Shown here: piece after piece, positions 47,315-50,244 of the stretch
How the letters are laid out: every line of letters begins with the position of its first letter
Position numbering within the stretch: position 1 is the first letter of the stretch
Virus record (IMG/VR): IMGVR_UViG_3300030104_004631
Location: 24,153-88,152 of that record
Strand: one strand, 5' to 3'
From: a virus
Length of the DNA: 64,000 nt
Notes under the pieces: generated by a model
Told to the model about the DNA's origin: nothing
Databases searched by the model: none
What the model saw: only the letters and a program-made list of their open reading frames with translations
Position numbers and translations under genes: made by a program

Positions 47315-47342
47315 TTTGGTGTTATTAACACATAACTTTAAA

Positions 47343-47367
47343 GAGACCCTAAGGGGTCTCTTTTTTT
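47343..47367 (+). terminator. Intrinsic terminator after gp23
   Basis: GAGACCC/GGGTCTC stem with a TAAG loop and seven T, 28 nt after the gp23 stop. An additional perfect inverted repeat GTGTTA-T-TAACAC lies at 47319-47331 between stop and terminator. Confidence 0.9.
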
Positions 47368-47368
47368 G

Positions 47369-47376
47369 TATAAATA
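47369..47376 (+). promoter_or_regulatory. Late promoter box TATAAATA before the synthetase-like gene
   Basis: TATAAATA directly follows the gp23 terminator, 20 nt before the ATG at 47397. It would place the synthetase-like gene, and possibly the tRNA, under late control. Confidence 0.65.
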
Positions 47377-47396
47377 TCTCAGTTTGACCAATAATA

Positions 47397-48194
47397 ATGA
47401 CAAGTCTAATTGACCCAAGAAAATACTCCGATGCAGTTGACCTATTAAGGTCATTTTTTTTGTCTAAAAATTTTCTAGAAGTCCATACTCAGAATCGTTT
47501 AAGTATACTTGCTGCCTGTGAAGATCCAGAAACAGTAGCAACATATAACTACGGTGGTAATATATGGCCACTACCACAGACAGGACAGATGTGGTTAGAA
47601 CATGAATTACTTTCTAACCCCAAAGAAGAGGGGTTTTTTTGTGTCTCAACATCATACAGAGCAGAACCTAATCCAGTACCAGGCAGACATGAAACTATAT
47701 TCCCCATGTTTGAATTTGAAATGAAGGGAGGTGTTGAAGAACTTAAATTAATGGAGATAGAATTGTGCGAATGGTTAGGTCTACCATTAGACAAAGGAAA
47801 TATACAGACTTATGATGATTGGACTAATCAATTTAACACTAAAGAACTAGACCATGATCACGAAGAAAAGATTGGTCGTGGTATGATTACTGACTTCCCT
47901 GAGTGGACATCGCCTTTCTGGAACATGGCACGTAATGAAGATGGTACCAGTAAGAAGATTGATGTTATATTAAATGGTATGGAAACTATCGGTAGTGCTG
48001 AACGTAGTACTGATAAAGATCAGATGCGTGATACATTCTATACTATATCAGATGGACAGTATGCTCAACTGATTATTGATTTGTTTGGTAGAAGTAGGGT
48101 AGAAGCAGAACTTGAAAAGTTCTTATCATTTGACTTCTTCCCTAGATCTGGTGGAGGCATCGGAATGACTCGTATAATATCAGCCCTTGAATAG
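47397..48194 (+). CDS. Stand-alone class II aminoacyl-tRNA-synthetase-like catalytic domain (AsnRS/AspRS/AsnA-related)
   Basis: 265 residues. It shows class II motifs in order: motif 1-like 'FFLSKNFLEVHTQN' (20-33); 'QTGQMWLEHELL' (61-72), like the S/TGQ substrate loop of AsnRS/AspRS; motif 2 'SYRAEPNPVPGRHETIFPMF' (86-105) continuing EFE, with Arg88, Glu90, Arg97-His98 and Glu106/108; and motif 3 'GGGIGMTRI' (252-260, Arg259). No anticodon-binding OB domain is present at either end, so it is about half the length of AsnRS. Asparagine synthetase A and archaeal AsnRS-like paralogues share this fold, so the product may not be Asn-tRNA. A tRNA gene begins 7 nt after the stop. Two terminator-like hairpins lie inside the coding region. 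No clear ribosome binding site is seen. Confidence 0.78.
   Translation: MTSLIDPRKYSDAVDLLRSFFLSKNFLEVHTQNRLSILAACEDPETVATYNYGGNIWPLPQTGQMWLEHELLSNPKEEGFFCVSTSYRAEPNPVPGRHETIFPMFEFEMKGGVEELKLMEIELCEWLGLPLDKGNIQTYDDWTNQFNTKELDHDHEEKIGRGMITDFPEWTSPFWNMARNEDGTSKKIDVILNGMETIGSAERSTDKDQMRDTFYTISDGQYAQLIIDLFGRSRVEAELEKFLSFDFFPRSGGGIGMTRIISALE
47438..47461 (+). terminator. Terminator-like hairpin inside the synthetase-like gene (first)
   Basis: TGACC/GGTCA stem, TATTAA loop, then eight T, at codons ~14-22. The reading frame stays open through it. Only 5 bp of stem, so strength is uncertain. Confidence 0.45.
47616..47640 (+). terminator. Terminator-like hairpin inside the synthetase-like gene (second)
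   Basis: AACCCC/GGGGTT stem, 8-nt loop, followed by seven T, at codons ~74-82 just before motif 2. The frame stays open. Confidence 0.5.
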
Positions 48195-48201
48195 GGCTCT
48201 T

Positions 48202-48286
48202 TGTGAGGTGGCGAAACGGTAAACGCTCTAGTCTGTTTAACTAGTGTCTCTGGCGGGACTTGTAGGTTCGACTCCTACCCTCACAG
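48202..48286 (+). tRNA. tRNA with GTT anticodon (Asn codons) and long variable arm
   Basis: Full cloverleaf: acceptor TGTGAGG/CCTCACA (48202-48208, 48279-48285) with discriminator G at 48286; D stem GCG/CGC with GG in the loop; anticodon stem CTAGT/ACTAG; loop CTGTTTA giving anticodon GTT at 48235-48237; T arm GTAGG-TTCGACT-CCTAC. The variable region is 17 nt (48245-48261) with a stem GTCTC/GGGAC, which is class II architecture (Leu, Ser, bacterial Tyr), not expected for tRNA-Asn. Position 37 is T, where a purine is normal. CCA is not encoded. Asn is the decoding assignment by geometry; amino-acid identity is uncertain (Ser also has G73 and a long arm). Confidence 0.82.
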
Positions 48287-48363
48287 TTTAAAAAAAATAT
48301 TTAGGTATATATTAGTAGGCATTTATTTTTGTTAAATGTATCAGGGAATACAGACACAATTTG

Positions 48364-49267: not shown

Positions 49268-49696
49268 ATGAATTTAGAAACATTGCAGAACCTGTGGAAG
49301 ACTGATTCCAAACTGGATGAAGATCAGCATGATAATGATTCCTTGGCAATTCCCCAACTTCATATGAAGTATATGGAGTTTCATAATCAATATTCTCTTA
49401 TGAAAAAAGAAAGAGAAATTGAAATGAAACGTCTCATTAAAGAGAAATGGTTATACTACAAAGGTAAGGCACCATCTTCAATCTATAAGGAAATGCCATT
49501 CGATCTCAAACTTACTACTAAGGAAGAGATCTCAATGTTTATTGAAGCGGATGAAGATATCGGAAAACTTAAATATAAAATTGAATACATAGACCAAGTG
49601 GTCTTCTTTTTAGATGGCGTTTTGCGTATGATTAATAATCGTACGTACCATATTAAAAACGCTATTGAATGGAAGAAATTTCAAAGTGGTTTTTAA
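49268..49696 (+). CDS. uvsY: Recombination mediator UvsY
   Basis: 142 residues (T4: 137). It is highly charged and helical; 'LKYKIEYIDQVVFFLDGVLR' and 'INNRTYHIKNAIEWKKFQSG' match the UvsY C-terminus, including the Arg/Lys-rich surface. It loads UvsX recombinase onto gp32-coated ssDNA. It forms a unit with the oxygenase gene (2 nt gap) and uvsW. Confidence 0.88.
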   Translation: MNLETLQNLWKTDSKLDEDQHDNDSLAIPQLHMKYMEFHNQYSLMKKEREIEMKRLIKEKWLYYKGKAPSSIYKEMPFDLKLTTKEEISMFIEADEDIGKLKYKIEYIDQVVFFLDGVLRMINNRTYHIKNAIEWKKFQSGF

Positions 49697-49698
49697 TA

Positions 49699-50244
49699 AT
49701 GAATTATGGAAAATTTTACAAGGAAGTATCCTTCAACACTCAGTCAATTAACATAGTACGAAAAGCAATATCACAAGATTTAAAATTTACTAAAGGAGAA
49801 CTACACAGTAGTCACAGATCAACAAGAAGTTCTGAGGTAGCGTGGTTGAGAGATATGGATCTCTTGTCTATGCTTATGCGTATGTCTAAACAGATTAATA
49901 GATCTGCAAATTGGAACGTAAAAATTGATGGTATGGAACCTGTACAATTTGGTATCTATGGAGAAGGAGATTTCTATGATTGGCATGTTGATCAACACCC
50001 AAAACCTATTGGGGGAATGGTAAGGAAGATTAGTATGTCACTTTTTCTTAATGATGATTTTGAAGGAGGGGAGTTTGATTTGGAGATATATAGACCAGAT
50101 GCAGATCCAAGGTATAAAACTTTTAAGTTAAAACCATGGTCTGCTATTTTTTTCCAAGGTGATCAATGGCATAGGGTTCGCCCTATCACCTCTGGAGTTA
50201 GAAAATCTATTGTAGCATGGTTTTATGGACCTCCTTATTCGTAA
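49699..50244 (+). CDS. 2-oxoglutarate/Fe(II)-dependent oxygenase (PKHD type)
   Basis: 181 residues from the ATG at 49699, 2 nt after the uvsY stop; an upstream in-frame ATG inside uvsY (49669) is less likely. The double-stranded beta-helix iron ligands are H96-x-D98 ('FYDWHVDQHP') and H158 ('FQGDQWHRVRPI'); Arg168 ('SGVRKSIVAWF') would bind 2-oxoglutarate. Prolyl-hydroxylase-like proteins of this kind are common in cyanophages; the substrate is unknown. It overlaps uvsW by 20 nt, linking it to recombination genes. Confidence 0.9.
   Translation: MNYGKFYKEVSFNTQSINIVRKAISQDLKFTKGELHSSHRSTRSSEVAWLRDMDLLSMLMRMSKQINRSANWNVKIDGMEPVQFGIYGEGDFYDWHVDQHPKPIGGMVRKISMSLFLNDDFEGGEFDLEIYRPDADPRYKTFKLKPWSAIFFQGDQWHRVRPITSGVRKSIVAWFYGPPYS

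Follow-up and report, generated by a model that had tools for sequence, protein, structure and literature searches.

An asparaginyl-tRNA synthetase-like enzyme paired with its own tRNA in cyanophages and its possible role in pyrimidine synthesis

A 64,000-nt stretch of viral DNA (the window) encodes a small class II synthetase-like enzyme followed directly by a tRNA gene (Table 1), and the two form an essentially obligatory pair in cyanophages, an association far beyond chance. We propose, with moderate confidence, that the enzyme is the phage branch of a widespread class II family without functional annotation, whose members activate asparagine in a PyrB-independent route of pyrimidine nucleotide synthesis, a role suggested by relatives that lie beside pyrD, pyrE or pyrF in genomes without the usual first pyrimidine enzymes. 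The enzyme would then probably help to make DNA and RNA building blocks rather than simply load tRNA for translation.

The window comes from an IMG/VR record of 88 kb and is about 95% identical to Prochlorococcus phage P-SSM7 over the compared stretch. The enzyme gene starts with ATG, encodes 265 residues and is labelled ‘tRNA ligase’ in the records of P-SSM7, P-SSM2 and P-SSM5; its product matches Pfam tRNA-synt_2 (E=2e-13) and PHROG 29758, the latter labelled ‘unknown function’. The original prediction of a class II core without an anticodon-binding domain was confirmed by an AlphaFold model (pLDDT 93.5, pTM 0.90) comprising the catalytic domain only, whose best Foldseek matches were AspRS and AsnRS (human AsnRS:Asn-AMP, TMq 0.80). 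By both length and model, the N-terminal OB-fold anticodon-binding domain is absent from the protein, which also falls below every curated aminoacyl-tRNA synthetase cut-off (TIGR00457/PRK03932, 18.0 versus 342.6 bits needed). Three class II motifs had been described as readable; motif 2 (YRAE...RHETIFPMFEFE) and motif 3 (GGGIGMTR) are so and align with AsnRS and AspRS, while alignment revealed motif 1 to be degenerate and to lack its Pro.

Table 1. Features of the enzyme-tRNA locus, in window coordinates
Feature	Position	Strand	Basis or remark
AsnRS-like class II catalytic core gene	47397..48194	+	ORF call, Pfam, PHROG, AlphaFold, Foldseek, alignment
Partner tRNA, class II shape, no encoded CCA	48202..48286	+	ARAGORN, Rfam, alignment
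tRNA anticodon GTT	48235-48237	+	
tRNA U37	48238	+	
tRNA variable arm	48246-48259	+	five base pairs
tRNA discriminator G (G73)	48286	+	
T4-type late-promoter-like TATAAATA	47369..47376	+	20 nt before start codon
Terminator-like hairpin and T run after gp23	47340..47367	+	read in sequence

The side-chain residues that separate Asn from Asp in these enzymes are established. We aligned the enzyme with AsnRS and AspRS taken from carrier genomes, and its side-chain pocket reads TGQMWLE, compared with SGQL..E in AsnRS and SPQLFKQ in AspRS, an Asn-type pocket (SGQLxxE, no Lys). The position of the Asp-binding Lys of AspRS is occupied by Leu in 215 of 216 family sequences and by Met in the remaining one, followed, as in AsnRS, by an invariant Glu; the AsnRS-type side-chain Arg is kept as R203, which is invariant, as is E68. 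The side-chain and ATP-site residues hardly vary across the 216 sequences, being invariant or almost so in copies with and without a linked tRNA alike. The predicted relation to asparagine is upheld by E68, R203 and the missing AspRS lysine; the enzyme probably activates asparagine and may charge the tRNA.

ARAGORN places the tRNA at 48201-48287, and it matches Rfam RF00005 with 52.8 bits. An alignment of 31 sequences contains compensatory changes in every stem, variable arm included, two-sided in 22 of the 24 predicted pairs. A class II tRNA with an Asn-reading anticodon, 7 nt past the enzyme stop codon, was correctly predicted. The body is Leu-like, yet it carries anticodon GUU and discriminator G, and both are kept in nearly all linked tRNAs. 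The variable region measures 17 nt in the window tRNA and up to 29 nt among the linked tRNAs, some of which (L108, L101, L134, L152) have a short arm; the long arm, previously suggested as a source of identity, is therefore not essential. Canonical tRNA-Asn shares the GUU anticodon and G73 with the window tRNA but has a short class I variable region in place of the long class II arm, and combines a purine at position 37 with U33, whereas the window tRNA has U37 (together with U33) and linked tRNAs sometimes have C33 or A33 (7 of 69). U37 occurs in 60 of 69 unique linked tRNAs (about 87%) and in none of 106 control tRNAs, a convenience sample of 110 other tRNAs of the same loci from which four with U37 were removed because they were themselves of the pair type. 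U37 and the occasional C33 or A33 make decoding by the linked tRNA doubtful, and neither the re-coding once envisaged nor class II (Ser/Leu) misreading is indicated.

The tRNA lies downstream of the enzyme in every cyanophage locus with enough 3′ DNA, starting 10-18 nt past the last aligned residue, or 22 nt in a single locus. Searched in reverse, 108 of the 109 cyanophage tRNA copies that could be evaluated had the enzyme directly upstream, and the remaining copy is at a contig end. The location between gp23 and gp3, as first described, holds for the window phage and not as a general rule, the pair being near gp61 in P-SSM2 and P-SSM5 and elsewhere in other cyanophages. A plain synteny artefact was ruled out, since the pair is found in differing cyanophage genome contexts and on more than one branch of the tree built from the enzyme; that enzyme and tRNA are a real functional pair, as had been predicted, agrees with this synteny.

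A shared late promoter had also been predicted, and TAAATA is indeed conserved at -26 to -30 of the enzyme gene in 66 of 67 upstream regions of relatives, compared with 5% in shuffles. The number of TATAAATA occurrences across the window is at chance level, with no enrichment, and the late-promoter reading is drawn from the positional conservation of TAAATA and not from that count. The terminator-like hairpin separates the pair from the transcript of gp23. P-SSM7 and the window both have the promoter-like block and the pair, whose RNA is labelled ‘tRNA-Asn’ in P-SSM7. Three more tRNA genes (Ile, Arg, Leu) form a cluster just before the enzyme gene of P-SSM7 and are lacking in the window (window 47315-47396 versus L001 3645-4000); as the flanks are about 95% identical, the cluster was recently gained or lost. 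In P-SSM2 the tRNA-Asn (PSSM2_199) is annotated at AY939844.2 164094-164179 (L002 6825-6910), inside a later gene, and is misplaced by ~2 kb; by sequence it lies at 162083-162168 of the record, 18 nt after the ‘tRNA ligase’. A 2OG-Fe(II) oxygenase gene was seen at window 49669-50244, between uvsY and uvsW.

Relatives of the enzyme at 45-62% identity are found in other phages as well as in CPR bacteria, DPANN archaea, Chlamydiae, Dependentiae, Bacteroidota and Proteobacteria; no matches came from a scan whose sole query was a huge-phage protein. A good share of the more distant phage copies are followed by an Asn-type tRNA at a distance of 0-400 nt (in L091, about 1 kb), and phage copies with the tRNA are scattered over the enzyme tree, whose well-supported branches force at least eight label changes. 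An adjacent tRNA is missing from nearly all copies in cells and from many in phages, and one 164-kb phage contig with the enzyme gene (G007) has no tRNA gene at all. Homologues consistently without the tRNA, named beforehand as a finding that would refute the original prediction, are what is seen outside the tRNA-bearing phage clades, and every evaluable cyanophage locus has the tRNA. Among the tRNA-less phage copies are L087, L107, L116, L124, L131, L141 and their relatives, some of them in contigs where genes for adenylosuccinate synthetase/lyase or glutamine synthetase are close by. A dedicated long-arm GUU tRNA was not found elsewhere in cellular carriers, where the matches checked were almost all tRNA-Leu or tRNA-Ser.

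Chitinophagales contain giant class-II-shaped tRNA genes of 115-152 nt (L311-L324, L267, L293), often in two to four tandem copies and missed by ARAGORN where tested. They mostly have anticodon GUC (Asp), U37, G73 and a very long variable arm, their 5′ half (TGTRAGGTGAYGAAA) resembles the phage tRNA, and in eight loci they adjoin an AsnC/Lrp-type regulator. As cellular partners of the enzyme they were dropped, since they are present in carriers and non-carriers alike, including several PyrB-less non-carriers.

Of 80 enzyme loci in cells, many of them cut by contig ends, 31 have pyrD, pyrE or pyrF in the retrieved flanking DNA, and the ORFs often overlap or abut; in L453 a dihydroorotate oxidase gene (468 bits) is directly upstream of the enzyme. 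PyrB exceeds the cut-off in one of 34 carrier genomes, a set that includes incomplete drafts, versus 14 of 14 controls, and three weak PyrB matches in carriers proved to be ornithine carbamoyltransferases. CarB is present in 2 of the 34 versus 14 of 14 controls, and PyrC (TIGR00857 type only) gave matches in nine, eight of them below the cut-off. Some CPR/Patescibacteria, Dependentiae and DPANN probably lack PyrB and CarB regardless of the enzyme, so that absence there is weak evidence. Chitinophagales, the only order given a co-occurrence test, were sampled with 149 genomes, 138 with PyrB and 11 without; all five carriers lack PyrB compared with 6 of 144 others (Fisher p=8e-7, no phylogenetic correction), which is the strong part of the case although it involves only five carriers. 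In Patescibacteria the carriers (3 of 145) were too few for an association test. Coatesbacteria G049 (L200) is an exception, having the enzyme together with PyrB and PyrC, and possibly puts it to a different use. Taken from gene context and genome content, the link of the enzyme to the pyrimidine pathway is strong. The cellular copies were rejected as their organisms' main AsnRS as a general rule, since a full AsnRS is present in 13 of 34 carriers and GatB exceeds its cut-off in 25 of 34.

In phages, pyrE lies beside the pair in cyanophages L024, L029, L046 and L082, pyrF beside it in L093-L096 and L100 and near L140, and a pyrD-like gene is present in phage locus L219, which makes four cyanophage loci and several marine ones with such genes near the pair; other phage copies of the enzyme are near purA, purB, IMPDH, thyX or glutamine synthetase genes. 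The enzyme and the same type of PyrE are both found in P-SSM2, P-SSM5 and P-SSM7, which represent two genera, and in no other named cyanophage, PyrE having been compared by one query against a phage-collection background of at least 464 records with gp23 at least 60% identical. Only a minority of tRNA-linked phage copies have pyr genes beside them, and pyrE of P-SSM7 is about 16 kb away. Cyanophage pyrE is a known auxiliary gene that is commoner at depth (PMC9983427).

We infer that the enzyme in cells would replace the CarAB-PyrB(-PyrC) steps and supply dihydroorotate to PyrD. It would convert Asn and ATP to Asn~AMP, CO2 would be captured at the α-amine of Asn~AMP to give an N-carboxyanhydride, and attack on this by the side-chain amide would yield dihydroorotate, perhaps with the help of a second protein. 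This chemistry is proposed from general chemistry and from asparagine holding every dihydroorotate ring atom except C2. In a cyanophage, the regulated host ATCase step would be bypassed, and host PyrD and the phage's own PyrE would be fed late in infection. The partner tRNA would most likely be a carrier or donor of asparagine (Asn-tRNA) for the enzyme rather than an ordinary elongator, charged by the enzyme itself or by a host enzyme; with GUU and G73 it would be a fitting substrate for a host synthetase, and U37 would exclude it from ribosomes. This role as Asn acceptor or donor is the weakest step of the proposal, and against a carrier-only tRNA, the strict retention of GUU is hard to explain unless a host synthetase reads it. 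We put forward only tentatively a tRNA-dependent pyrimidine route, in which Asn on a dedicated, largely non-decoding tRNA (or the enzyme's own Asn~AMP) and CO2 would give dihydroorotate in place of carbamoyl-phosphate synthetase, aspartate transcarbamoylase and dihydroorotase, making the phage enzyme and tRNA a portable pyrimidine module.

A private Asn tRNA for translation had been proposed for this pair: a minimal AsnRS would charge the class-II-shaped tRNA(GUU) with Asn, either raising the supply of Asn-tRNA for late phage proteins or replacing a host tRNA-Asn cut by a defence nuclease. The AsnRS-type pocket, the strict linkage and the retained GUU and G73 speak for it, and phage tRNAs whose anticodon loops are altered have been reported to escape the tRNA nucleases of the host (PMC10264068). 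Such a role nevertheless leaves the co-occurrence of enzyme and PyrE unexplained; homologues in cells, and many in phages, share the active site yet sit in pyrimidine operons with no dedicated tRNA, many carriers already have AsnRS or GatB, and U37 and C33 or A33 are unusual for decoding. The pairing itself stands, but the genomic setting in both cells and phages indicates pyrimidine synthesis, and we regard a purely translational role as less likely. A tRNA that merely travels with the enzyme gene, or that serves as a 3′ processing signal of the enzyme mRNA, might be thought of from the many enzyme copies without it and from the frequency of tRNA genes in cyanophages. The same Asn-type tRNA is linked, however, in several separate tree branches and differing genome contexts, GUU, G73 and U37 are conserved and the cyanophage tRNA is practically never without the enzyme, which makes this highly improbable.

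Two further readings concern the reaction. ATP-dependent ring closure, in which the enzyme would activate the β-carboxylate of carbamoyl-aspartate and replace dihydroorotase, would fit the pyrimidine context and the scarcity of PyrC, and AsnA, which has the same fold, activates aspartate by β-carboxylate adenylation. It seems improbable, as carriers without CarB and PyrB have no obvious source of carbamoyl-aspartate and the side-chain pocket is of the AsnRS and not the AspRS/AsnA type. A free asparagine synthetase of the AsnA or archaeal AS-AR kind (Asp + NH3 + ATP -> Asn) would share the fold, the size class and the lack of an anticodon domain, and NCBIfam gives a weak match to archaeal asparagine synthetase A (E=0.0024). 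The replaced AspRS lysine, with the invariant Glu beside it as in AsnRS, argues against this activity, which would explain neither the tRNA nor the clustering with pyr genes and loss of PyrB; we give it very little weight.

The preferred reading, an asparagine-activating enzyme of pyrimidine synthesis, sets the family apart from known systems. AsnRS (TIGR00457; PDB 8h53, 1x54) shares the class II fold, the ATP-site residues, (S/T)GQxxxE, the side-chain Arg and, in phages, the relation to an Asn-type tRNA, but is ~450 residues long with an anticodon domain, has a shorter EG motif where the enzyme family has a conserved SILAACEDP stretch, and lacks the link to pyrimidine genes in cells. Archaeal AS-AR and AsnA are likewise stand-alone AspRS/AsnRS-type cores without an anticodon domain but have the Asp-binding lysine, unlike the enzyme, which has a tRNA partner in phages; AS-AR was not among the PDB matches of a profile search. 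The CarAB-PyrB-PyrC route has the same proposed product, dihydroorotate, feeding PyrD, PyrE and PyrF, yet its enzymes show no homology to the one described here, which occurs where they are missing. HisZ, EpmA, GluQ-RS and BirA are synthetase paralogues recruited outside translation to metabolism or modification; they belong to other subclasses or use other substrates, and to our knowledge none replaces early pyrimidine steps or has a dedicated tRNA. Aminoacyl-tRNA serves as a metabolic intermediate in haem synthesis (Glu-tRNA), with GatCAB and in peptidoglycan synthesis (tRNA-Gly), sometimes on poorly decoding tRNAs. We know of no example of tRNA-dependent pyrimidine biosynthesis, and found none, nor any description of the pair or such a pyrimidine route, in an open-access library. 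Synthetase paralogues in metabolism being known, what is new is the part in making pyrimidines that we propose for a synthetase-like enzyme together with a tRNA of its own.

The usual teaching has a single route of de novo pyrimidine synthesis, via carbamoyl phosphate and aspartate. If the proposal is true, the pathway could also be entered by a second way in the absence of PyrB and CarB, spread over CPR bacteria, archaea, Chlamydiae, free-living Bacteroidota and abundant marine phages. The unannotated PHROG 29758 and some apparent pyrimidine auxotrophies would then be explained, and a conserved phage tRNA that seems unfit for decoding would have a definite function.
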